In this document: positions 25,201 to 62,507 of the stretch, one piece after another | Layout of the letters: each line of letters starts with the position of its first letter | Position numbering within the stretch: the first letter of the stretch is position 1 | NCBI RefSeq assembly: GCF_964355755.1 | Contig: NC_092676.1 | Span: forward strand, 18,830,288 to 18,894,287 | Origin: Antedon mediterranea | Lineage: Eukaryota > Echinodermata > Crinoidea > Comatulida > Antedonidae | Direction of reading: 5' to 3' | Length of the DNA stretch: 64,000 bases | The notes under the pieces: model-generated | Seen by the model: the letters and a program-made list of their open reading frames with translations, nothing else | Databases searched by the model: none | Told to the model about the DNA's origin: nothing | Translations under genes and position numbers: made by a program

Positions 25201-26825
25201 GTCCGAAGACTAATGAACCGATAAGTTTTCCGAGAAGTACGATTGACTTTCCCAGTTGACGCATCCAGTTTTGATCACAAACCAAGTCCCACTGAATAAG
25301 AAAACGTTAATACTTTTTTAACTATGTGACGTTAGGTAGACCATCTTAAGATAGGAGGAGGAAGAGAATGAGGAAGAGGATGAGGAAGAGGAAGAAGAAC
25401 AGAAGTAAAATGAACAAAAAGAGAAAGTGGAAAAGAAGTAGTAGGAGTAAGAGGAACAGAAGGAGGAAGAGGAGGAGGAACAGAAGTAAAATGAACAAAA
25501 AGAGAAAGTGGAAAAGAAGTAGTAGGAGTAAGAGGAACAGAAGGAGGAAGAGGAGGAGGAACAGAAGTAAAATGAACAAAAAGAGAAAGTGGAAAAGAAG
25601 TAGTAGGAGTAAGAGGAACAGAAGGAGGAAGAGGAGGATGAGGATGAGGATGAGGATGAGGAAGAAGAAGAGGAACAGAAGGAGGAAGAGGAGGAGGATC
25701 AGAAGTAAAATGAACAAAAAGAGAAATTGGAAAAGAAGTAGTAGGAGTAAGAGGAACAGAAGGAGGAAGAGGAGGAGGAACAGAAGTAAAATGAACAAAA
25801 AGAGAAAGTGGAAAAGAAGTAGTAGGAGTAAGAGGAACAGAAGGAGGAAGAGGAGGAGGAACAGAAGTAAAATGAACAAAAAGAGAAAGTGGAAAAGAAG
25901 TAGTAGGAGTAAGAGGAACAGAAGGAGGAAGAGGAGGATGAGGATGAGGATGAGGATGAGGAAGAGGAAGAGGAACAGAAGGAGGAAGAGGAGGAGAAAC
26001 AGAAGTAAAATGAACAAAAAGAGAAAGTGGAAAAGAAGTAGTAGGAGTAAGAGGAACAGAAAGAGGAAGAGGAGAATGAGGATGAAAAATAGATGCATTA
26101 CCTTATATTCCCCTCCCTAAATTTGCGCGCCACTTGGTATTTATTCCATTTAAATCGACGACATCGTTTTAAGCTCTGTCTACTCTATCAAACATTATGT
26201 GACAAAAAATGTGAAGTGTGCCCATATATGGACATGATATTGTCATATCACTACTATATTTGGGCACATCACACTTTTTTATCAAACAAACTTGAGAGTG
26301 TAGACAGAGTTACAAGAATCAAATTTAATCAATTAATTTAAGGTGTGTAGTTGAAGGAGGAGGAAGTTGAAGTATATTTGAATGCTCTCTCATTGTTACA
26401 CTTTTTAGGCCTACGATCAACCCCTAAAATTGTAAAATACTTACTTCTGTGACGACTGTCTCTCCGTAAATCTTACGATCGTAGAGCCATCCTGAACGAC
26501 ACTCGGTCTCTTCATCCGATTCAGACGTGCAGTTAAAATCACTATCACTGTTAAACCCAGTGATGTTGTATTGTTTATATTCCTTACATTTAGACCATTC
26601 ATCCTTGTCGCTATCCCATGGGATTGCACATTCAATGGCGTCGTCTTTGTACTTCAGTGCCCCTTCAAATCGGCAGTGATGTTTGGGCGAACCACTTATA
26701 AACGTGTTGGCAAAGCTATGGAAAGCGCAGGGAATGGCTGTAAGGCACACCAAGAAAAAATACAACTTCTGAGCTCTTCCAAATTCACCTACGTGGTTTA
26801 CGAGAATATCGTCAAACGCTTCCAT
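22219..26825 (-). CDS. SLC22-family organic ion transporter, copy 2 (10 exons, 551 aa)
   Basis: Coding exons (minus): 26825-26445, 25291-25145, 24943-24832, 24560-24392, 23933-23795, 23657-23566, 23477-23266, 22974-22866, 22655-22422, 22279-22219. They sum to 1656 nt in one open frame. Same domain order as copy 1: TM1, Cys-rich glycosylated loop, [32 protein letters not shown], hydrophilic tail. Exon lengths equal those of copy 1 except for one extra codon at the end of exon 9. By eye, exon 1 differs at roughly one residue in twelve, and membrane-segment exons differ more. This fits a membrane carrier of organic cations or zwitterions; substrate unknown. Intron 1 holds a 740-base polypurine minisatellite and a MITE. 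No disabling change seen. Confidence 0.93.
24126..24212. repeat. Inverted repeat in SLC22 copy 2 intron 4
   Basis: ATGACGTCATGAT at the left is answered by ATCATGACGTCAT at the right, with further pairing of AACAATA/TATTGTT inward. A compact palindromic element without coding capacity. Confidence 0.65.
24650..24775. repeat. CGGT-core dispersed repeat
   Basis: The order GTCGCGT, GGCTCACTATGT, (CGGT/TGGT)n, GTAAACACTAA, GCAACCATGTATATGGCCTTG is shared with 47826-47935 (inverted) and 63688-63778, and partly with 1768-1845 and 20600-20670. A short interspersed family of unknown type. Confidence 0.75.
25350..26087 (+). repeat. Polypurine minisatellite with 300-bp higher-order period
   Basis: The marker CAGAAGTAAAATGAAC starts at 25400, 25481, 25562, 25700, 25781, 25862 and 26000, so spacing runs 81, 81, 138, 81, 81, 138. 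That is a 300-base superrepeat seen twice. Nearly every base on the plus strand is A or G. All periods are multiples of three, so 250-codon frames (Arg/Lys-rich and Leu/Phe-rich) are open on both strands, but nothing supports translation. It lies in intron 1 of SLC22 copy 2. Confidence 0.9.
26173..26310. mobile_element. MITE-2 copy in SLC22 copy 2 intron 1
   Basis: Ends GCTCTGTCTAC...GTAGACAGAG, with GTGTGCCCATATATGG and TTTGGGCACATCACAC inside. Preceded by TTAA and followed by TTAC. It belongs to the family also at 31796, 53212, 58890 and 62366. Confidence 0.8.
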
Positions 26826-29639: not shown

Positions 29640-29746
29640 TGAATGTGTTGCCAATTACATACTCAGTTTGGCTTCCGATCAGGAAAAGGATGCAGTGACG
29701 GCATATACGTATGTAGACAACTTCAAGAAATCGCACATAGAACACA

Positions 29747-32631
29747 TAGTCCAGTCCCTAAGTGGAAATTATGTTACCATAGTGGATACAAGTGTGCCCT
29801 TTGGCATGTTGATAGAACATGATATGGAGATACCAAAACAAAGTTATTGGAAATCTGATTTGACCTCTGTGACCTCTGACCTCAATTTTTATATTTCTAT
29901 CTTAAACAGCCATATCTCGGCAACGGGGTTGACAATTGAAATGATATTGGTGTCAAATAGATCAGAGGGTACATATTTATATTCGCTATAATAGAACTTT
30001 TTTTCAAAAAAACGACCGGAAATGTAGTTTCTGAATGTTTTGACCTTTGACCTCGGCTTACTATATCTCAATAACTACTTGTCAAAATTTCTTGAAATTT
30101 GTTTCAAATTGTTAAGAGCATACACATTTATATATACTCTAATTAAAGATGTTCTTCCAAATTCACAGGAAATGTCATTTACTGACCTTTGACCTTTAAT
30201 GTTTGAATATGTCTGTATCTCTGTAACCAAATGTCATAAAAAGTTTGGTTTGGTGTCAAATTGTTCAGAATGTAAACATTTATATTAGCTCTATAATAGA
30301 AGATGTTATCATATTTTTACTGGAAGGTATGACCAGGATATACTGTCAAGCGTGCGTGTGTCATACTTATAATAATATACCTAAAATATAGATTTAATGG
30401 ACCAGAACTACATTCAATATCCTATTTAGTTTACTTTTTACAATTTTCTTTAAACTTAAATTTTCATTAATTTCAATATATAATTCCATTGCATGGTAGG
30501 CCTACACCGTAAGAGCAACACTTAATATCAACATAAAATTAGATAAACTTTTTGTTGATTAACATTAAAAAAAAGAAAGAAAATCAAGATCTTAAAGAAA
30601 GAAAAGAAGAATTAACCAATGAGTTTTGATACTCATAAAACATATGACCTAATTATCAATTCATTGCTTGAAGTATGCTGAAAAAATGAAATGTTGAAAA
30701 CAGTGAGGAAAAACCGAAGGAAAGAGTAAAAAATAAAAACATATGCTTAAAATATTAGAAATCTGAAAAGGATCAAAGACAAATTAATTACATAGCTGAT
30801 TTCTTTTCAAGAACATACTGTAGTGGAATATAAAAAGAAAACAAACCAGCAGTCAAAAAAATTACCATCTATTTTTGTAGAGAAAATGAAAGAGGCTGTA
30901 ATTAAGGCAAATGCAAGAAAACAAAGCTCCAACACTGATGATGAAGATGAGGCAATAACACATCCAGCTCATAACACTATACAACAAAATCTTTGAAACC
31001 AGAAGAAATGAAGAGAAGCAATGATATACAAAAACATTACAAACTGACAGACAAATAATTTACAAAAGTAATAAAAAAAAAATCAGAGACCGACTAGAAG
31101 TAAATAAACCAAGATATAAGGTTTCATACAGTAGGACCATCTATACAGTTTGTCAATCAACTAAAATAAAAATGAAATGAATTTCAACAAATCTTTGATT
31201 TAGAGATTATCAGAAGCATTTGACTCAATAAAACAGGCATTACCAATACCATATTAGAGGTAATTATTATACCTCAGCAAATAGTGATTACGATCGCTCA
31301 AAGAGAAGTTAAGGAAGATTAGTAAGACAAGAAGACACTTCACTGCATTGGAAGAGGTGTTTAATCAAAGAGTTAATCTAAAAAAAGTAAATTTCACTTA
31401 TAAAAAGACAAAATCAACAGTTAATTTAACCAAAAACCACATTAACTTTTAACCATTTTTTCCGATCCAATTTTTGGTGAACTATTATGTGATATTAAAT
31501 CAACTATATTAAAACATTCAACAAAAATATTTGTAAAAATTACATTGTCAGGGGGACAATAATTATATCTTTAATAGCATTTGATGTTATTAGCCAATAT
31601 TTCAAATGTAGTTTTGAAACTTTCCCAGTACAAACAATTGCCATAATTGTGATAACATTACAATACACCCATCCTCTGGGACCTTTTTTCAAATGCAGCT
31701 AAAAACTTTCATTTGATGTGTATAGATGCATGCAGTAGTATTAGAAAAGCAAGGGAGTTGGTTGGGGTGGATGGAGAGACACATATGTTTTACATGTTTG
31801 TCTACACTATCAAACTAGTTTAACAAAAAAGGTGTGATGTGCCCAAATATGGTAGTGATACGATGTCATCATGTCCATATATGAGCACATCACATTTTTT
31901 GTCACATTTTATAGTGTAGACAGAGTTTAACATTTGTGCAACATGTAAAAAAGTATGTGTCTCTCCATCCACCGCAACCACCTCCCCTCTCTTGCTCTCT
32001 TTTTATAGATTATTAGTTGCTAAATATATGCAAAACGATGGGTCATAGCTCAAATTGACATTTCCAATTGAATTCTGACAAAATATTTTGTAAGAGCAAA
32101 TATAAATGTGTATATTTTGAACAATTTGACACCAACCTGAACTTTTTAGGACAAATAGTTACCAAGATATCGACATATTCAAACATTAGAGGTCAAGGGT
32201 AAAAAAAGCTAAATTTATGGTAATTTTTTGAAAAAAGTTTCTATTAGACTAAATATTAGATTTATTTTCTTAACATTTTGAGCCCATTCTCAAATCTCTG
32301 AGATTGCGCGTTATTGAGATATTAGCCAATCAAGGTCAAAGGTCAAACTGAAAAAAATAAAGCCTTTGCGGCCATTTTTGTACAATTTTTTTTATTGTAG
32401 CGAATATAAATATATATGTAAAATGTCCATGCGTTGTCAAGATATGGCGATTTTTAGTTATATAATATAAAAATATAAAAATTGAAGTCAGAGGTCACAC
32501 AGGTCAAATAAGATTTCCAGTAACTTTGTTTTGGCATCTCCACACTATACTCTACCAAACTGCTATATTGAATAATTTGTATCCAGTCTGGTAACATCCC
32601 ACCCCTTTTTCTCCCCTTAGGGACTGGACTA
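29747..32631. mobile_element. Foldback DNA element A (2885 bp)
   Basis: Perfect termini TAGTCCAGTCCCTAAG and its reverse complement, with ACA duplicated at 29744-29746 and 32632-32634. Long inverted arms cover roughly 29810-30340 and 32040-32570. The arms are made of ~141-bp modules with TGACCTTTGACC (30041, 30183) and its complement (32334). The interior (30340-32030) is AT-rich and carries a nested MITE-2. A Lys/Glu-rich stretch near 30870-31000 may be a decayed ORF, but no transposase motif is recognised. Confidence 0.85.
31796..31926. mobile_element. MITE-2 copy nested in element A
   Basis: GTCTACACTATCAAACTAGT at the left and ATAGTGTAGACAGAGT at the right, followed by TTAA. The central CCATATATGAGCACATCACA matches the other family members. 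Confidence 0.8.
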
Positions 32632-33805
32632 ACAGCGAAAATTGTTTTCATGCTTTATCGATCTCACAGCAGCATATGACCACGTCAACAGAGAATTCCT
32701 GTTTCGAAGCATAAAAAACAGAATACATTATACACAGCCAACTACTAATGTAAACATATTGGAGTCCCTGTATAGATGCACACAATCATACCTAGCCGAA
32801 GAAGGCCCAGACTCTCAATTTACAACATCAGCAGGAGTACGCCAAGGTGGTAACGAGAGTCCTAACCTGTTCAACCTCTACATGGACTATGCCCTTAGAA
32901 TGTTTACATATCGTTACCAGCAAGATGCTACTACCAGAGGTTTAGAAATCAAATACCGTGTTCCAATCGTAGCAACCAACAGGGAACAAAGAAGAACATC
33001 ATCCATGTGTGGCACATATACAGATCTTGTTGCTGGATATGCTGATGATCTAGTACTTAACAGCTGGTCATTAGAACATTTGCAATCTATGGTAAATCTT
33101 ATACATCTGGTCTTCAACGAATATGGTCTTCAGATTAACATATCTAAAACGGAGACCATGCCGGTGTATAATTGGCAAAGAGATGATGGAGAATATCCAA
33201 CCTCTATTATCAACATCAATGGCACAAATCTGCATAATGTAAACACATTTAAATACCTAGGAGTCTGGATGACCTATGATAACATCAACATAGGAAAACA
33301 GGAAATTCATCATAGAATATGTGCTAAGGCTGCCTTTGCTGAACATAAGAAACTCCTGACAAATCAAATCATTTTTAACCTTAGAACAAGAATCAAATTC
33401 CTGAACGGATTGGTTAGAAGCAGACTGATGTACGGTTGTCATGCTTGGAGACCAACAAACACTGAAATCGGACTAATAACAACAACGTACAACAGATTCC
33501 TCAGGAGGATGATTAGAAATGGTTTCAGACGCGTCAACCCACCAGATAAACATACACAATCAGACGATGAGAAAGAAATAGAGTCTGAGGAAGAAGAAGA
33601 ACAACAGGAAACTGATTGGCGGTACGTTGTCAATAACCAGAGGCTCTACGCAATAACCAACACGATATCAGTATTTAAATTCTACCAACAACAGCAATCT
33701 AACTGGATTTCACACTGTATTCGGAGACAAAACTATGATCCCTGCAAAGTTCTTACATTTTATGACCAAAAAAGTAAATTGATAGGAAGACCGAGCCCAA
33801 GTATA

Positions 33806-36420
33806 TAGTCAATGGGATTTAGACTTTTAACTCACACAAATTGCAAGAAAAGGTTTTTTTGATGAAATGTGTTCTTTAGACCCTACTGAACACATTTATC
33901 AACGTTAGGACATTTTTCGACAACAGGAAGTAGCCTAATTTGCATAATTAAAAATGGCCGCCATTTTTAATAACGTACTCTGTATCTTGGAAACCGCTAG
34001 TCACAGATACTTAATTATGGTGTCAAAATTGTTAGAATATATGTTTTTATATTCACTTTAATGAAAAAGTTTGTCCAAAAATGAATGGAAGTGCTATTTC
34101 TAACATTATTGACCTTTGACCTTGATTTATTATATCTCAGCAACCACTAATCGGAGATATACAAATTAGGGCTTAAATTGTTCAGAAACTACACATTTAT
34201 ATCCAGTCTAATGGCATGTTTTTGCAAAAAATGGCGGATTCTAACATTATTGACCTTTGACCTTGATTTATCATATCTTAGCAACCACTAATCTGAGACA
34301 CACACAATATGGCTCAAACTGTTAAAAAACTACATATTTATATTTAGTCTAATGGCATGTTTTTGCAAAAAATGGCCGATTCTAACATTATTGACCTTTG
34401 AACTTTGCACTACATAAAATCGCATAACTTTGAAAATATTGTACATATGAAATTATTTTTAGTGTCAAATTGTTCAGAACATACATGTTTCTATAGAGTC
34501 CAATGACACATTATGTCCAATAATGGCCTTTTGTATGGTTATTAACATTTGAACTATATTTGAAAATTCTTTAAACCCGGAATCTTCTTCATGTGGACAT
34601 CCATTAGAACATGTGATTTGGCACTCTAAAATGTAAGAGTTGCAACGTTGACTTATTATGTTTAGTTTAAAGTAGGCCATGGTACGTTAAATTTATAAGC
34701 ATAAACTATTGCATTCATCCATAAACTGCCTACAAGTTTACACGTTTGTTTAGTTTATTTCTTATCGTTTTCGCAGCTGAAGCTGAATTACAAGATATTT
34801 ATATTAAAAGCATTAAAATTGATGGTTAAAAAATGGTAAAAATTAAACCACATAGAAACATGGTACATACACAATACATTCACGTAAAAAAAGTAAAAAA
34901 ACAAGTTATAAAAGGTTAAAAACTATACACCACTAGTAGTCGTACTGTATATGGTTATTGAAATAAATAAATAAATTCCATAAGAAACTGAGGTTTTTAC
35001 TGTATACGGCGAAAATATTGCAAGTGGTGGTCAGCCTAATTATGAGTCTCGATAGCCAATTAATTAAACTAAACTAAATATGTTGCATTAATATCGATCT
35101 TTTAAAATTCCAGTTGTCAACAATGCGCGCGTCTATTAGTAGAAAATGCCTTCTTAATAAGACTATGTTTCAACCTAAAAGAATGCCCTCAAGAGTGATG
35201 CTATCCTTAGCAAAATATGAACTAAATAACCTTTAGAAATTTGTTTTTTTGAATATGCCATTTAATGGCAATTTAATTTGATCAAAAAATAAATTACTAA
35301 ATTGAAAAAAACGTTAATAAACCTGCAAAATGGCATGGCCTATTTAAAGTATGTACAATATATCATTAAAAAAAATACATTTTTGTTGGCTCTGTTAATA
35401 GTGTCAACACCAACTTTCTCCTGAGTAAGATGTAAGACCGAATTAAAAATGTATTAATAATCCAAACCTATAATGTATGTATATATAGTCTAATATTTTT
35501 TTTTTAAAGTGAATATTTTCAGTTTTTAAATTTAATTTAAATCAACTGGTTACATGCACTTTAAATTACCACCATATTCTAAACAAGTAGTGCCAAATCA
35601 CATGTTCTAATGAATGCCTACATGAAGAAGATTCCGGGTTTAAAAATCCTTTTCAAATATAGTTCAAATGTTAATAACCATACAAAAGGCCATTATTGGA
35701 CATAATGTGTCATTGGACTCTATAGAAACATGTATGTTCTGAACAATTTGACACTAAAAATAATTTCATATATACAATATTTTCAAAGTTATGCGATTTT
35801 ATGTAGTGCAAAGTTCAAAGGTCAATAATGTTAGAATCGGCCATTTTTTGCAAAAACATGCCATTAGACTAAATATAAATATGTAGTTTTTTAACAGTTT
35901 GAGCCATATTGTGTGTCTCTCAGATTAGTGGTTGCTGAGATATGATAAATCAAGGTCAAAGGTCAATAATGTTAGAATCCGCCATTTTTTGCAAAAACAT
36001 GCCATTAGACTGGATATAAATGTGTAGTTTCTGAACAATTTAAGCCCTAATTTGTATATCTCTGATTAGTGGTTGCTGAGATATAATAAATCAAGGTCAA
36101 AGGTCAATAATGTTAGAAATAGCACTTCCATTCATTTTTGGACAAACTTTTTCAATAAAGTGAATATAAAAACATATATTCTAACGATTTTGACACCATA
36201 ATTAAGTATCTGTGACTAGCGGTTTCCAAGATACAGAGTACGTTATTAAAAATGGCGGCCATTTTTAATTATGCAAATTAGGCTACTTCCCGTTGTCGAA
36301 AAATGTCCTAACGTTGATAAATGTGTTCAGTAGGGTCTAAAGAACACATTTCATCAAAAAAATCTTTTCTTGCAATTTGTGTGAGAAAAGGGTCATTTTT
36401 TAGCTAAATCCCATGGACTA
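33806..36420. mobile_element. Foldback DNA element B (2615 bp)
   Basis: Ends TAGTCAATGGGATTTA and TAAATCCCATGGACTA, one mismatch apart, with ATA duplicated at 33803-33805 and 36421-36423. Arms of ~850-900 bases (33806-34700 and 35560-36420) are complementary with few mismatches. They contain 141-bp modules with DR1 motifs at 34110, 34251, 35953 and 36094. The ~860-base centre is AT-rich and without a gene. It shares the TAGTC terminus and 3-bp duplication with element A. Confidence 0.88.
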
Positions 36421-36730
36421 ATACTTCAGAGAACTATAAACGCTAGTCAACTAGACCGGGAAGACTATATATGGAAGTGCTTCCAGCATCTTTTATAGAA
36501 GACAAAAACTACTATGTCCAGTAGTCATTAAGTTGATTAAGTTATATGTCTTGATGTTTAATTTTAATTTTAAATGTAAATAGGTTGGGTAATCATCAGG
36601 AATAGTCCTGAACAGGGAGATGAGCGCCCCTGCCCACCGATGAGTTTCGGGATCCCTTTGACCCGGAGGGAGAGTACCCGTCAGGGTACCCAGGTTTTTA
36701 TTTGTTTTTAAAATTAATTAGTGTTCCATG

Positions 36731-37876: not shown

Positions 37877-40800
37877 AAGTTGTGCACTTTATTACCAAAG
37901 CATGAAACTTTCCACAAAGTTTCTTTGATGTATATAGATTAAAAATATCGGGGGGTGCCAAGTGTCCAACGTCCGGTATGGCGGCCATCTTGATTTCAAA
38001 ATGGCCACCATAAAAACAAAAAGTGTTCATATCTTGGCAACTATAAACAGTGGAGACTTGATTCTGGTGTTAAATTGTTCACAAACCACATATTTCTATT
38101 TGTTCTAATGTAAAGTTTCGTCCAAAAAATGACCGGAAATGACGTTTCTTCCAGTTTGACCTTTGACCTCTTATTTGTATATCTCAATAACTACTAATCA
38201 TTTTCAATCGATTTTGGTGTCATTTTGTTCAGAATAGAGACATTTATATTTGTAGTAATGAAACATTTTAACATAAAATGACTGGAAATACAATTTATAA
38301 CCTTTGACATATATAATTATGTGAACATACTGTATGTGGTTTACATTGGTATAAATGCACCTAATTTTTATACCGAAATAAATGACACATAACGCAAAAA
38401 TGACCAGGAATTATTATTCTGAATTTTTGACGTTTGATGTGATAGGATAGGCATAAAGTATGACAGATCACTGAGCTCATCTATGCCGACTTGTTTGATG
38501 TGTCAATCGTTAGATAACAGTTTTGGTCCTCTCTCCTTTATCTTTTCTTTTCTTTTTTTTAAATGTATTATACCATATGTTGAATTGAATTGTTAGATGC
38601 CATTTGGAAAAATTTTTGATGTAAAGTAGCATTCTTTCGTTGGCCTCTTTGATGTTGCATATGAGACAAGTTCGGAAAGTTCTCATTTTCGTGAGTTAAG
38701 AGAAGAGAACACCATCTTTCAAAGTACTTACTACAAACTTATCCTGCATTTGTGCAGTAGACCTACTTTCATTAGTCAAAAACTCAGATAATTCTTGTTC
38801 ATTTTCGTTGCATCTAAAAAAATGTACTCCATTTTTATGGTATTGCTGTAAACCTTTCATCTGAATCATTTTCTCTAGTCATTGATTTTTTAGCAAAATC
38901 CGAACCAAATCAATTCGTAAAAGACATCTCATTATAATTATTCAAATAATCCTCAAATTAGTGACATGGACCTACAATATACTGTTCTGTACAAGACCTT
39001 TTTAGGCATCCACCTGTGGACTTTCACTTTGAAGGTCTTGGTCTCCTATCATACAAGAAACAATGTCTGATTTAATCAATCAAAGCAGTGGGTCCAGACA
39101 AAGAAGGGGGTGTAAGACCATCCACATACAAAGAAGGGGGTGTAAGACCATCCATATACAAAGGAGTGGGTATAAGACCATCCACAGACAAAGAAGGGGA
39201 TATAAGACCATCCACAGACAAATAAAGAAGGGGTGTAAGACCATCCACAGACAAAGAAGGGGGTATAAGACCATCCACAGACAAAGAAAGGGGTATAAGG
39301 CCATCTACAGACAAAGAAGGGGTGTAGGACCGTCCACAGACAAAGAAGGGGTTGTAAGACCATCCACTGACAAAGAAAGGGTATAGGACCATCCACAGAC
39401 AAAGAAGGGGGTGTAGGACCGTCCACAGACAAAGAAAGGGGTGTAAGACCATCCACTGACAAAGAAATGTGTATAGGACTACTTACAGACAAAGAATGGG
39501 GTATAAGACTATCCACAGACAAAGAAGGGGTGTAGGACCATTCACAGACAAGGAAGGAGGTGTAGGACCATCCACAGACAAAGAAGGAGAGGTAAGACCA
39601 TCCACAAACAAAGAAGGGGGTATAAGACCATCCACAGACAAAGAAGGGGGTGTAAGACCATCCACAGACAAAGAAGGGGGTGTAGGACCGTCCACAGACA
39701 AAGAAGGGGTGTAAGACCATCCACTGACAAAGAAATGTGTATAGGACTACTTACAGACAAAGAAGGGGGTATAAGACCATCCACAGACAAAGAAGGGGTG
39801 TCGGACCATCTACAAACAAAGAAAGGGATGTAAGACCACCCACAGACAAAGAAGGGGTACAAGACCATCCACACACAAAGAAGGGATTATAAGACCACCA
39901 ATAAACAAAGAAGGGGTGTAAGACCATCCACTGACAAAGAAAGTGGTATAGGACCACTTACAGATCAAGAAGAGGGTATAAGACCATCCACAGACAAAGA
40001 AGGGGGTGTAGGACCATCCACAGACAAAGAAGGGGTGTCGGACCATCTACAAACAAAGAAAGGGATGTAAGACCACCCACAGACAAAGAAGGGGTACAAG
40101 ACCATCCACACACAAAGAAGGGATTATAAGACCACCAACAGACAAAGAAGGGGGTGTAGGACCATCGACAGACAAAGAAGGGGGTATAGGACCATCGACA
40201 GATAAAGAAGGGGTGTTAGACCATCTACAAACAAAGAAGGGGGTGTAGGACCATCGACAGACAAAGAAGGGGGTGTAGGACCACCCACAGACAAAGAAGG
40301 GGGTGTAGGACCACCCACAGACAAAGAAGGGGTACAAGACCATCCACACACAAAGAAGGGATTATAAGACCACCGACAGACAAAGAAGGGGGTATAGGAC
40401 CATCGACAGACAAAGAAGGGGGTATAGGACCATCCATAGACAAAGAAGGGGTGTTAGACCATCTACAGACAAAGAAAGGGGTGTAAGACCATCCACACAC
40501 AAAGAAAGGGGTTTAATACCATCAACAGACAAAGAAGGGGTACAAGACCATCCACACACAAAGAAGGGATTATAAGACCACCGACAGACAAAGAAGGGGG
40601 TATAGGACCATCTACAGACAAAGAAGGAGGGTTAGGACCATATTAACCCAGGAAGCATACAAAAAGAAGATGCAATCAAAATAGGCCTACCACTTCGAAA
40701 ACAATAAATTGTAGAATAACTGAGGCTTAATTGTTGAAATATAAAGGGTTCTTTGTAAGTTCATTAATAATATATTGATATAAACACGATCATCATACTA

Positions 40801-41562
40801 ATTATTTGAAATTCAAATACAGTCTATATCGAAAAGAGGCTCATACTATCACCTTTTTGAGGTTTTACGGTATTCCATACATGTATGTTATTTCCTCTGT
40901 CAAACTATTAAAACTTTTAGCGAATCAGAAGGTGCCAACATCGTTGAACTAATGGTACCACCAAGCACAATGTTTACCAATTTTATGTAGGCTACTATAT
41001 ACAATTCATTAATCATTTAATATAATTACGCCTATCAGGTAAAATTTCAAAATTAGGTGCATTTAAGACCAACAAAAACCACATACAGTATATTCACATA
41101 ATTAAAAATCAATAAATAAATGTCAAAGGTCATAAATTGTTTTTTCGGTCATTTTATGTGAAAATGTTCCATTACTACAAATATAAATGTACTGTATTTA
41201 TTCTGAACAAAATGACACCAAAATCGATTGAAAATGACCAGTAGTTACAAAGATATACAAAGACAAGGTCAAAGGTCAAACTGTAAGAAACGTCATTTCC
41301 GGTCATTTGTGGACGAAACTTTTCATTAGAGCAAATAGAAATATATAGTTTGTGAACAATTTGAGACCAGAATTAAGTCTCTAATGTGTATAGTTGCCAA
41401 GATATGAACATTTTTTGATTTTATGGTGGCCATTTTGAAATCAAGATGGCCGCCATACCGGACGTTGGACACTTGGCACCCCCCGATATTTTGAATCTAT
41501 ATACATCAAAGACACTTTGTGGAAAGTTTCATGCTTTGGTAATAAAGTGCACAGCTCATGTC
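37877..41562. mobile_element. Foldback element C (~3.7 kb) enclosing a minisatellite
   Basis: Inverted arms of ~510 bases, 37890-38400 and 41045-41555, start GTGCACTTTATTACC and contain TGACCTTTGACC (38157, complement at 41267) on ~141-bp modules. The wording around CGGACGTTGGACACTTGG is identical in both arms. The exact termini and a target duplication could not be fixed. The interior holds ~650 bases (38400-39060), the 39.1-40.65 kb minisatellite and a short unique part. On the minus strand at 38690-38890, a short Asn/Glu-rich frame could be a decayed ORF. Confidence 0.75.
39090..40650 (+). repeat. ~30-bp minisatellite with higher-order variants
   Basis: Units of 29-30 bases resembling CCATCCACAGACAAAGAAGG plus GGGTGTAAGA. 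Variants recur in blocks: the GATTATAAGACCACC variant appears near 39886, 40124, 40360 and 40567, suggesting a superperiod of roughly 210-240 bases. Overlapping frames on both strands are repeat artefacts. Confidence 0.92.
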
Positions 41563-52995: not shown

Positions 52996-55900
52996 ATGCG
53001 TAGAGCCAGAAGGGGCATCCACTTTGGACTACAGTATCAGCACTTTTCACGAGTGAGGATGTTGGGCCGATTTATGGACCGTGAGGCAAATAGGCCACGT
53101 TATTACGGTGTTCTGCGCGTGGAAAACACATTACTGAGTAAAGGTGAAGGACTCTTCGTAGATGGTATGCCTGTCTCTCCTGGGAATAGCTTCTTTGAGG
53201 TACATATCTAAATTCCTGTCTGCACTATCAAAAGAAATGTGCCCATATTTTTTATGTTACTGTATATCAATACCATATTTGAGCATATCACTACCATATT
53301 TGGGCACATCACACTTTTTTTGTCAAACAAGTTTGATAGTGTAGACAGAACTTAACATTTATTTTATTAATATTTCCGAAACACATCTCTTTGGCTTTAT
53401 ACAGCACAAAAAAAAAATACCAGCACCAGAGCGGGTCCCTCAAACTCGGTATAAATTCCGGTCATTTTATACCATACCACCCAATGAGAGTATAGTCTTT
53501 TCTGAAAGATTGATTTACTGCCCTGGTTGAAAACTTCAAATAAATAACTTGAATGATTGAATATTATTTCCTCAGGTAGAGTTGTCCAACCCATTGAAGA
53601 TACCATCAATTTGTGTTGGTCTTTCACCACCTGATCAAAAGCCAGGAACGCCATTAGGATCTGATGAGAAATCCTTGGGTTATAATGTGACGGATTCCTC
53701 AGTGTAAGTTATTACGACTAAATAAATAGTGATAATATCCTGGATTTATAAAGCCCCTAATGTTTTGAAACCTCAAGGCGCTGTACATATTATAGTACCC
53801 TGGTCCTTGCCACATGTGTGGCAAATGCAAACGTACATAAAGTGTTCAAGGGTACAAGCAACAAGCATTAGATTCGAACCCACACTCTCACAATCAGTAA
53901 TCCAACAAGCAACACTGCGCCACATGCCCTTACTCTCAATGTAAACTACATAGTGATACTATAGTTAGTTTACAGCTTAATTGATGTTGAATTTATTGAT
54001 CCAACGAATAACTCTTATTACTCCAACATTGAAGACATTGTAAACGGTTTTAATCGATATTTTACTTCTATTTTTAATGATGTTAACGTTCATTTTAATT
54101 TTAACGAACCTCCCCCCTGTTCTCTTAAAATCCCTGTACTTGCTGATATTTCATTTAGTCCGAATGATATAATTAACACCATATCTACATTTCGGTCTAA
54201 TTCCGCTCCTGGACCAGACTTAATATCAGTCAAATTACTCAAGCCAATATCGCATTCAATTGCCTATCCCCTTTGGTTGCTGTATCGTACTTCTCTTAAT
54301 ACTGGTACTGTGCCCAATGATTGGAAATGTGTAAATACTATTCCAGTTCATAAATCTGGCGATAAGGCAGCGATAACTAATTATAGACCAGTGGCCCTTT
54401 CCTCATTGGTGTGTAAAATTTTAGAGAAGATTATCGTAAATAACATTAATAACTTTACGTATGACAACGGTTTACTTAACCCTAATCAACATGGTTTTGT
54501 CAAACATAAATCTTGCGTAACTCAACTCAATAATGTTACCTATCACTGGTCAAAAATTCTTGACAAACGTGAGCCAGCAATTATTGATACTCTGTTTTTA
54601 GACATGAGCAAAGCATTTGATAAAATGCCCTTCGACATCTTATTAACAAAAATTGCTGTAAATTTTAATATTCAAGGTAATATCTGGAAATGGATATCTT
54701 CATACTTGACTGACAGGAATCAGAAAGTTTGTTTCAGGGGGGCTACTTCTTCCGTACTTCCAGTCACATCGGGTATACCTCAGGGCAGTTGTCTTGGTCC
54801 AATTTTATTCAATATGTTTGTGAACGATGTTAATCATAATGTTTCTTCTGAATGTTTTCTTTTTGCAGATGATATAATACTATATAGACACAGACAAAAT
54901 GCCAACGATATTGTTAATTTGCAAAATGATATAAATATTTTATCTAATTGGGCTGATAAGAATCAAATGAAATTCAATGTCAACAAAACTAAATTAATGC
55001 ATATCACCAGAAAGCGTAACTTTGTTAAGCCGTTGTACTTTCTTAATGGTGAGACAATTGCGGTGGTTGATAGCCATAAACATTTAGGAGTACATATCGA
55101 TTCTAAACTGAATTGGAATGTTCAAATTGATAATCTAATATCGAAAGCTAATCGAATGTTAGGCTTTATTTTTTCTGTAGCCGGAAATTGCTCTCCAGAC
55201 GCGATTTCGTGTCTGTACAAAACTTTGGTGCTACCTATTCTAGAGTATGGTTTGCCGGCGTGGGGCCCCAGAAATGGAGGACACATAAAACGCCTCGAAC
55301 AGGTTCAGCGACGGGCCTCTAGACGTATTCTGGGACCCCACTGCGGACCTATATCATACGACGAACGTTTAATAACTTTGGGTTGGTTATCCTTACGTGA
55401 TAGACGTTTAATGATTTTAATTTCCTTTATATTTCGTTGTTTTTATAATGTAACTTTTTGTAGTACTGTAAATAACAATATCCATATCAATCAACGCCAT
55501 CCTGAATTACTCACATTTGTCCACCCTTTTGCACGTACCGATACTTTAAAATATTCGTCTATCAACAATTTTCCTGTTATATGGTCATCACTACCCTCCA
55601 TAATCAAAGATCAAGCAGTTACTCTTCCTTTGAAAAATTTCCTGTCGAAATTGAAAAAATATCTGCTTGATCAACGCTAAATTTATTTTAATTGTATAGG
55701 AGTATTTTAAATGGTGTAACACAGTAATACAAATTAATTAAATTTTTTATATTTTCTGTATATTTTATATTCATTTTTAACTTGTATTAAGTTGTATGTT
55801 ACAGGGATTGCGGACACAAATGTGTTATGGTGCTCTGTTGCTGTCGCAATCCCTGGACCGCTTGTTGTCGAATAAAGAAATGAAAATGAAAAAAAAAAAA

Positions 55901-58900: not shown

Positions 58901-61156
58901 TATCAAACTTTATGTGACAACAAAATGTGATGTGGCCATATATGGCATGATGATGTCATATCACTACCATATTTGAACATAGCACTACCATATTTGGGCA
59001 CATCACACCTTTTTTGTCAAACTAGTTTGATAGTGTAGACAGAGCTTAAGTCTATGTGCATGTGTGTATTCAATTTTTGGTAGTAGTTTAAGTTTGTTTT
59101 TCTCCCATGTTTATTTTATTTTCAGCCCTTTAACATTAATATTCTTATTCTTCTTCTAAATTGTAAATGTTTTATTTAGATTAAATCCTTTTTTTTTCAT
59201 AGTTTTTATCGTATGTAGGAAGAGGAAAGTCGACAGCTAATGTTGGACTTGCCCAAGCGAGGAAACCAGTTACCCCAACAAATCATTACTTTGAGTTAGA
59301 AATAATTGATCCTGGAAAAAACTGCTATGTTGCTATTGGTCTAGCCAGGCGTAACTATCCAAAATCACGTCACCCTGGTTGGAATTATGGCTCCATAGCA
59401 TACCATGCAGGTTAGTGAAGTTAAATCCAGTTGGAGAGGTGGGGGAGTTTGAGATAGTTGATCGTGAAAAAATTGCTATGTTGCTATTGGCCAACTATCC
59501 AAACCACCCTGGTTGGAATTTTTTCTCCATACCATATCATGCAGCTTGTAAGGTTAGGTTGGTGAAGTTAAATCCAGTTTGGGAGGTGGGAAAACACTGA
59601 CAGAGGAAAAAAAACATTTTTTCAGTACATATATAAAAAATCATAGAAAAATGTGTTTACTTGAATGTTGCGGTGTATGGGTGGGTCACTACGACCTTAG
59701 GGAGTAACAAACATTACCCTTGCATATGTTACTATTATTTAGTTTATGATTATATTTTTGTTCTGTAGGCCAGACTATATTTACATTACACAAAATGTTT
59801 ACTACTGATTTTTAAACAAAAATAACTTTTTTAATAATAATAAAATCATTATTTCTGAAGAAAGAACAATAATTAAAACTGTTATTTCAAAAAGTAGAGC
59901 GGCGTTTTTTGTAGGAAATATTTCTTGTTTAATGTAAGTTATCAGACAGAAATTTGGGTAATAAATATGTATGTAATGTCAATGATATTTAACAGTCATA
60001 TTTAGCTCTATATTCGACAGTGCCTTTACATTTATTCTTTGTTTATTTAGATGATGGTAAATTATTTAATGGTGTGGGACAAGGTGACCCATTTGGCCCC
60101 AGGTGCTATAAAGGTGATATTATGGGATGTGGAGTGATGTTTCCTCGTGATTATCAATTTGATGAGTAAGTTTGCATAAATAAGCTATGATAACACATAA
60201 TGTTAATATTGTCTTTTTAAATTTTTGATTCAAATTGCAGATTAAAAGCCAATTTACACAGACGAGCGGTGACGGTAAGAAATACATAATGTTAGATGTT
60301 ATTCCTTATGACCATTTACAAACAACGTGGAGCGGCCGGGCGGTTTCCGCTCAGGATAGATACAGATTCTATGTGGAACAAGCTCTTGGCTTACCGTTAC
60401 AGCTACCGCTCGTCTGTGTAAATTGGCCTTATAGAAAATTTTCAGTTTGTCTTTCATTGCTTAAAATAATAAAAGTGAATATCTTTTACAGCGAAGATAA
60501 AGATGCTGAAGAAGAAGAGGGTGCTTCATCAGTGTTACCAGCTAGAGACCCGTTGTATGGCCTTGGTGACCTAAATCTTATGTACCCTAGAGGGCAGTAT
60601 GAAGATGACGATCAAGATTTAATTAATGAGGAATTGATGGATTTACAAAGTCAAGGAATCAGTGTACAGGTTGGTTTGCTTATTTTGTTTATTTCTCAAG
60701 ATTAAATTGAAAAAGAAAACCATGAAAAGTAAGCATCTACTGTACAGCCAACTTTCACATTACAGGACACTATTCGAATGACCTAATAAGTCTGGTATTC
60801 AGAGTGTGTTTTATGCTAAACATTAATTTTCTACGTCAATAAAAGCCTGGTTGTTTGGAGAGTCTCCGGTTTTCAGAGAAAATTGGGAGAGCTGACAGTA
60901 TGCATAGATGTTCTATTCAAATTCAAGAAAAGATGAGGACCCTACCCTAAGGAATAAAGGATCATTTATCACTGGTACCATGTAAGGAAATAATCATTTA
61001 CTGCATACGATTTTTTTCCAGGTATTTTTCACTAGAAATGGCAAGACAATTGGACGAAGAGAAGTACGAATACCACAAGGTGGCTTCTTCCCCTCTATAG
61101 GAATGATGAGTATTGGAGAGAAAGTTCGCATTGATCTTCGACCTTTGAGTGGTTGA
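52996..61156 (+). CDS. SPRYD3: SPRYD3, twin SPRY-domain protein (8 coding exons, 427 aa)
   Basis: Coding exons: 52996-53199, 53576-53703, 57266-57398, 58438-58620, 59203-59410, 60051-60165, 60492-60669, 61022-61156. They total 1284 nt in one frame, each with GT/AG ends. The N-terminal MRR-RR matches the vertebrate start. First SPRY at about residues 35-190 (GDKIGCGVKF; TVYFTINGRE), then DSCEEDWARLHDV. Second SPRY at about 217-427 (GLAQARKPV; NHYFELEIIDPG; HPGWNYGSIAYHADDGKLF; GDPFGPRCYKGDIMGCG; VFFTRNGK; GGFFPSIGMMSIGEKVRIDL). An acidic insert at ~325-375 matches the acidic stretch of the human protein (442 aa). SPRY domains bind peptides; this protein's role is poorly known. The first SPRY is more diverged than the second. 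Introns host a LINE, a SINE, two MITE-2s, a MITE-3 and a minisatellite. Confidence 0.95.
53212..53351. mobile_element. MITE-2 copy in SPRYD3 intron 1
   Basis: CCTGTCTGCACTATCA at the left and GATAGTGTAGACAGAAC at the right, followed by TTAA. The interior GGGCACATCACACTTTTTTT is as in other copies. Confidence 0.8.
53730..53940 (-). repeat. tRNA-derived SINE
   Basis: On the minus strand the head has box A-like TGGCGCAGTG and box B GGGTTCGAATC. The tail ends with the complement of CAAGGCGCTGTACATAT, resembling an L2-type LINE 3' end. That is the usual design of a SINE mobilised by an L2-like LINE. Confidence 0.65.
53965..55890 (+). pseudogene. LINE reverse transcriptase in SPRYD3 intron 2, long open frame
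   Basis: The frame is open from 53965 to 55680 (about 571 codons). RT motifs in order: APGPDLISVKLL, NYRPVALSSL, LDMSKAFDKM (motif A), SGIPQGSCLGP (motif B), FADDIILY (catalytic), HLGVHID, then the C-terminal KTLVLPILEYGLPAWGP and RRASRRILG. The endonuclease domain is missing, so it is 5'-truncated although the RT frame has no stop. The UTR ends with a hairpin (AGGGATTGCG / CGCAATCCCT) and GAAATGAAAATGA plus an A run. Same strand as SPRYD3. Jockey superfamily. Confidence 0.88.
55975..56960 (+). repeat. 27-bp then 21-bp minisatellite in SPRYD3 intron 2
   Basis: Units TTGATGATATTGATTTATAC+AGTTAAG (27) up to ~56570, then shorter units GATGATATTGATTTATAAGT+T (21) to ~56960 that lack the ACAGTT hexamer. 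A few 30-base variants with TTTTAAG occur near 56030 and 56140. Confidence 0.93.
58890..59045. mobile_element. MITE-2 copy in SPRYD3 intron 4
   Basis: Perfect ends GCTCTGTCTAC and GTAGACAGAGC; TTCA on the left and TTAA on the right fit a TTAA target duplication with one change. Confidence 0.85.
59446..59544 (+). pseudogene. Decayed tandem copy of SPRYD3 exon 5
   Basis: Bases here repeat the 3' half of exon 5 (GAGTT-GA-ATA-TTGATC, TGCTATGTTGCTATTGG, AACTATCCAAA, CACCCTGGTTGGAATT, CATACCAT-ATCATGCAG). There is a deletion of about a dozen bases, and the donor is replaced by CTTGTAAG. The intron start GTGAAGTTAAATCCAGTT is repeated after it as well. A ~150-base tandem duplication placed a second, now frame-shifted, exon copy inside intron 5. 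Confidence 0.85.
60248..60427. mobile_element. MITE-3 copy in SPRYD3 intron 6
   Basis: Ends GCCAATTTACACAGACGAGC and the complement GCTCGTCTGTGTAAATTGGC are perfect over about 23 bases. Related sequences lie at 37499 and 42890. It is read through by a 156-codon frame ending at 60705 that merges with exon 7, but the AG before 60492 is the real acceptor. Confidence 0.8.
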
Positions 61157-62365: not shown

Positions 62366-62507
62366 TGCTCAGTCTACACTATCAAACTAGTTTGGAAAAA
62401 GAGTATGATGTGCCCAAATAGGGTAGGGATATGCTTAAATATGGTAATGATATGACATCATAATGTCCATATATGGCCATATCACATTTTTTTGTCACAT
62501 AGAGTAA
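62366..62507. mobile_element. MITE-2 copy, right end eroded
   Basis: CAGTCTACACTATCAAACTA at the left and the CCATATATGGCCATATCACA interior match the family. The right terminus is cut near TCACATAGAG. Confidence 0.7.

Follow-up and report, generated by a model that had tools for sequence, protein, structure and literature searches.

Academ DNA transposons are described as generating target site duplications (TSDs) of 3 bp (PMC5199201), and curated elements of this superfamily are reported to average 5,565 bp in length (PMC10294476). Two lineages differ in this respect, AcademX with TSDs of 3 or 4 bp and AcademH with TSDs of 9 or 10 bp, the difference being tied to a nuclease in the former versus a helicase in the latter (PMC10045372). 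The present study concerns two foldback elements, A and B, found in a 64,000-nucleotide stretch of the genome of the crinoid Antedon mediterranea (NC_092676.1, positions 18,830,288 to 18,894,287). This whole stretch is referred to as the window and is numbered from its first base. On the basis of architecture and TSD, with no match in profile libraries above cut-off, we consider it very probable that A and B belong, as non-autonomous elements, to the nuclease-bearing AcademX lineage of the Academ superfamily. They would be two families in a known superfamily; both are new to us, though Repbase may already list them.

The interrupted LINE and the A and B families

In the window, the 5'-truncated reverse transcriptase (RT) sequence of a long interspersed nuclear element (LINE) is interrupted by both A and B. 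Joining the three LINE pieces, with each element removed together with one copy of its TSD, yields a single open frame of 449 amino acids (aa) containing no stop. This agrees with a first-pass annotation of the same DNA, which had described two foldback elements in one LINE whose excision restores one RT frame. Each element begins with TAGTC and ends with GACTA (the termini of B read TAGTCAATGGGATTTAG and CTAAATCCCATGGACTA), and the exact 3-bp duplications reported along with these ends, ACA for A and ATA for B, are present at the positions listed in Table 1.

Uninterrupted relatives of the LINE were sought in the genome, 95 of 978 candidates being scored. Of 109 matches, 18 span query residues 1-441 unbroken at 52-54% identity, 15 of them free of stops. 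A closer copy (C8:12219013-12220300), which has stops and a frame shift, spans both junction residues, with 82% and 97% identity. Absence of uninterrupted copies would have weakened the insertion reading; since such copies exist, the reading is unharmed. These data support the view, also put forward in the first-pass annotation, that A and B are younger than the LINE copy they interrupt, having inserted into a pre-existing element. A second related LINE, on contig C4, is split by a B copy, RT residues 88-309 and 310-441 flanking the segment C4:13426084-13431277.

Further copies were collected from the 354-Mb assembly (18 contigs), scoring 40 of 167 candidates for the 5' end of A, 40 of 167 for its 3' end and 40 of 333 for the 5' end of B. 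Twenty copies of each element were fetched, and both ends were located in 17 A and 15 B copies; in the other eight (L016, L019, L027, L039, L048, L053, L054 and L055) the fetched stretch contained no right end. Exact 3-bp TSDs flank 16 of the 17 A copies and 14 of the 15 B copies (30/32). Adding the window copies brings the figure to 32/34. As the flanks of L043 and L044 are the same, this corresponds to 31 of 33 distinct sites. The exceptions are L025 (AGT/CTA) and L047, whose right end was taken 5.4 kb off and probably belongs to another copy. The match between flanks reaches five bases at L010 and exceeds three at no other site. The duplicated triplets are varied (e.g. GTG, TGC, CAG, CCA) and not restricted to TWA. 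A and B are interspersed families, not chance resemblances. The two B copies with identical flanks, L043 (C10:13956070) and L044 (C10:13785018), lie about 171 kb apart and are a segmental duplication.

A consensus of A was built from 9 of the 17 complete copies, those measuring 2,950-2,990 bp. The identity of these copies of about 2,970 bp to the consensus is 98.3-99.2%, and the longest stop-free stretch of the consensus is 108 aa; they are a young non-coding subfamily, the main one of A. The window copy is more distant from this consensus (89-99% by segment). The longest A copies reach about 10.3 kb between ends (C9:9309190) and, read at their ends, look like nested insertions. The window copy itself contains an inverted-repeat stretch, possibly a separate nested family of miniature inverted-repeat transposable elements, with partial relatives at 26169-26311, 53286-53360, 58912-59049 and 62372-62500. 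In L027 (C6:11866279-11871279), the 5' end of an A copy adjoins a KDZ-type transposase (PF18758, E 1.8e-6); judged from this one side, the copy appears to be inserted in a KDZ transposon.

A coding element with B ends

The 17-mer of the B terminal inverted repeat (TIR) occurs 137 times in the genome, versus 0 for the reversed control. Among the first 100 of these places listed, 28 B-ended pairs no more than 12 kb apart were obtained. The longest pair delimits an element of 7,049 bp on contig C2 (C2:33493468-33500516), the rest measuring 401-5,379 bp. The C2 element carries the B TIR at both ends, is flanked by CAA/CAA and contains a frame of 1,247 aa. The 3' flank of this frame is a B arm, which ends with CTAAATCCCATGGACTA at L063:917; the last 467 bases of the element (L063:451-917) are 88% identical to the B right arm. 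The left end, at C2:33493468, was located by a search with the right-end sequence. Comparing the left junction (AACAA followed by TAGTCCATGGGATTTAG, in a 60-base read) with the right one (GGACTA followed by CAAGGC) gives CAA as the TSD.

A 1,100-base read upstream of a nuclease-like match in this frame is open throughout (366 aa, hereafter L065) and shares the frame of that match. The 1,247-aa product would thus consist of an N-proximal, putative DDE-like transposase region followed by a C-proximal, putative nuclease-like region, the designation of the latter as XPG-like being our reading of its acidic motifs. A search of the genome with L065 gave 121 matches. At five loci, its region and the nuclease-like region lie in one frame (1,247, 1,171, 1,360, 1,396 and 1,555 aa); in the frames of 1,360, 1,396 and 1,555 aa, the match to the second region is weak (E 4e-5 to 9e-4). 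Besides the one on C2, long frames are located at C7:22465196, C4:14283133, C10:8466289 and C3:23174365.

The pairing of B ends used the 58 of the 100 listed places able to form plus/minus pairs and omitted singles and two tandem arrays (C2:26789859-26790718 and C6:19724405-19781584). The array on C2 has twelve exact 17-mers in the same orientation, mostly about 71 bp apart, and is apparently a B TIR turned into a satellite. On C6, the TIR recurs six times in one orientation between 19740180 and 19781584, with a spacing of 8.2-8.5 kb that suggests a tandemly amplified segment. The longest frames inside B copies are retroelement-like by eye or unassignable (no library scan was made). One B copy, L052, is inserted in DNA similar to the terminal repeat of A (CAGTCCC-TAA, B, TAA-GGGGA).

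Table 1. Coordinates of the interrupted LINE, of elements A and B and of stretch C in the window
Feature	Position	Strand	Basis or remark
LINE RT, first piece (5'-truncated)	29643..29746	+	frame joining
TSD ACA, left copy of A	29744..29746	+	
Element A, non-autonomous foldback, 2,885 bp	29747..32631	+	TIR TAGTCCAGTCCCTAAG
A left arm, subterminal ~145-bp units	29771..30292	+	TGACCTTTGACCT-like boxes at 29870, 30041, 30183
Inverted-repeat stretch inside A	31753..31986	.	relatives elsewhere in window
A right arm, inverted	32093..32597	-	
TSD ACA, right copy of A	32632..32634	+	
LINE RT, middle piece	32635..33805	+	Pfam RVT_1, E 1.7e-19; frame joining
TSD ATA, left copy of B	33803..33805	+	
Element B, non-autonomous foldback, 2,615 bp	33806..36420	+	TIR TAGTC(A/C)ATGGGATTTAG
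B left arm	33824..34625	+	boxes at 34110, 34251, 34392
B right arm	35589..36390	-	complementarity with left arm ~98%
TSD ATA, right copy of B	36421..36423	+	
LINE RT, last piece (stop codon included)	36424..36498	+	frame joining
Stretch C, third related foldback-like stretch, same subterminal units	37881..41553	.	arms 37881-38368 / 41049-41553, ~89%

Subterminal arms and Acad1

The arms of A (about 600 bp) and B (about 800 bp each) are arrays of ~145-bp units in which several blocks are conserved, the TGACCTTTGACCT box among them. In the family consensus, the A arms are 73.5% complementary over 597 columns, and are thus more diverged than those of B. The same units occur in stretch C, whose termini and TSD were not located by eye. 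Within this stretch, ~30-bp repeats form a tandem array of ~1.5 kb (39095-40641).

One A copy (L028) is nested inside a larger coding element, which we term Acad1. Acad1 begins with TAGTCCAGTCAATCTA, ends with TAGATTGACTGGACTA and is flanked by TAG/TAG (one copy read). Its ends start with TAGTCCAGTC, like those of A, the first ten bases being in common. The protein it encodes is nuclease-like and has a cysteine-rich tail. Taken by coordinates, 22 left and 22 right matches to the Acad1 ends form 19 pairs, and one or more nuclease-like matches lie inside every pair. The two ends are separated by 3,872-7,567 bp in 18 of the pairs and by 17,613 bp in the remaining one. When 165 residues of the Acad1 protein were used to search the genome, 103 matches were obtained, some of which lie in frames 1,171-1,555 aa long. 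The matches between Acad1 copies and L065 are confined to roughly the last 45 residues of the latter; Acad1 therefore seems to have lost the transposase core and looks, from these matches, like a deletion derivative.

A and B could belong to Academ and yet owe their long arms to a by-product, such as the inverted duplication of one end, instead of an evolved transposition signal. We regard this as a minor but real possibility: the complementarity of the B arms, about 98%, suggests recent duplication or homogenisation. However, the protein-coding Acad1 also has long arms made of related units, with a complementarity of 79% across 632 columns. In addition, the box points inward in 32 of 33 instances from A, B, C, Acad1 and the C2 right arm (no more than 3 mismatches, enough flank), although these instances are related by descent and do not amount to 33 independent trials. 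A further instance, the 34th, was dropped for its short flank and also points inward. As units were chosen by the box itself, its conservation is in part a result of that choice, which does not apply to its orientation or to the remaining conserved blocks.

In the most likely mechanism, an element-encoded protein would recognise the TAGTC ends and the inward-pointing units, the latter serving as its binding sites. It would then excise the element and insert it at a staggered cut leaving a 3-bp duplication. Its first region would be the catalytic transposase and its second an XPG-like nuclease. A and B, which would have kept ends and arms without the gene, would be mobilised by this protein in trans. 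The TGACCTTTGACCT box has what we take to be the DR1 layout of nuclear-receptor sites. A more specific proposal, in which the arms function in Academ transposition through binding of the box by either the transposase or a nuclear receptor of the host, the arm hairpin being a substrate of the element's structure-specific nuclease, is speculative and, in our estimate, improbable.

Superfamily assignment and comparison with described systems

With a 3-bp TSD and a putative transposase-plus-nuclease layout as published, the anatomy fits AcademX (PMC10045372, PMC5199201). To the 31 A and B sites with a 3-bp TSD can be added Acad1 (TAG, one copy) and the C2 element (CAA), all within the 3 or 4 bp of this lineage. 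The sharing of ends between non-autonomous and coding elements is complete for B (full TIR and 88% arm, in the C2 element) and partial for A (ten bases, in Acad1).

Several points weigh against the Academ assignment. A Pfam search with L065 returned only a sub-threshold hit to DUF6589 (E 0.0076; 15.4 bits versus a cut-off of 27). For the second region, Pfam gave nothing nuclease-like and a search of PDB gave no nuclease. L065 shows what we take to be an Academ transposase signature, no library model scoring above cut-off. The reads of the C2 element, within L063-L065, cover 2,057 of its 7,049 bases. Lastly, no coding element with a full A terminus was found (40 of 167 candidates scored per A search), and of 80 listed A ends, a single one has any of the 224 Academ-like protein matches at a distance of 12 kb or less, this being the A copy nested in Acad1. 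As the autonomous partner with a transposase that the first-pass annotation suggested looking for, the C2 element, with its B ends and putative transposase, is a candidate for B; for A, no such candidate was found among the loci searched.

The same annotation had suggested that TAGTC ends with 3-bp TSDs could define a new class. A new superfamily with such ends, TSDs and foldback arms would account for a coding partner that matches no Pfam model above cut-off. Yet the 7,049-bp element delimited by the B ends has a putative transposase-plus-nuclease frame and a TSD length that agree with those published for Academ and AcademX (PMC10045372, PMC5199201), and we judge a new superfamily to be very unlikely.

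Membership in Zator or in another superfamily with 3-bp TSDs (CACTA, Harbinger) appears most improbable, since the ends of A and B are not CACTA and the C2 element already disfavours such an assignment. PIF/Harbinger elements duplicate TWA, and the TSDs at our sites go beyond it (GTG, TGC, CAG, CCA). Zator does make 3-bp TSDs (PMC10045372); its ISAzo13-type transposase (PF07592) has no match in the genome, a result that is uninformative on Zator because 14 control genomes are equally silent. For AcademH, a 9-10 bp TSD would be expected (PMC10045372) and 3 bp is seen; a helicase was not searched for. Foldbacks of the Mutator or P type have TSDs of 7-10 bp (Tetris 8-10, PMC4079207; P 7-8, PMC5199201) versus 3 bp here.

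If A and B are Academ elements, two interspersed and otherwise unclassifiable non-coding families gain a superfamily, with exact ends and target duplications for use in annotation. Foldback elements gain a case with 3-bp TSDs, and the common, oriented subterminal units offer a testable candidate for end recognition by a transposase accompanied by a nuclease.

Compared with described systems, the A/B group is like AcademX in its 3-bp TSD, in having putative transposase and nuclease-like regions in one frame and in comprising large coding and smaller non-coding elements. It differs by its long foldback arms of ~145-bp units with the TGACCTTTGACCT box. Academ arms of this kind were not found described in a literature search, little of which was directed at arms and which did not cover the main Academ papers. 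Zator resembles A and B in its 3-bp TSD (PMC10045372). Tetris is similar in its long inverted arms with tandem subrepeats, its variable non-coding middle and in that no coding copy was known when it was described (PMC4079207). In contrast to the 3-bp duplications of A and B, however, Tetris has TSDs of 8-10 bp and was placed in Mutator by its authors (PMC4079207).

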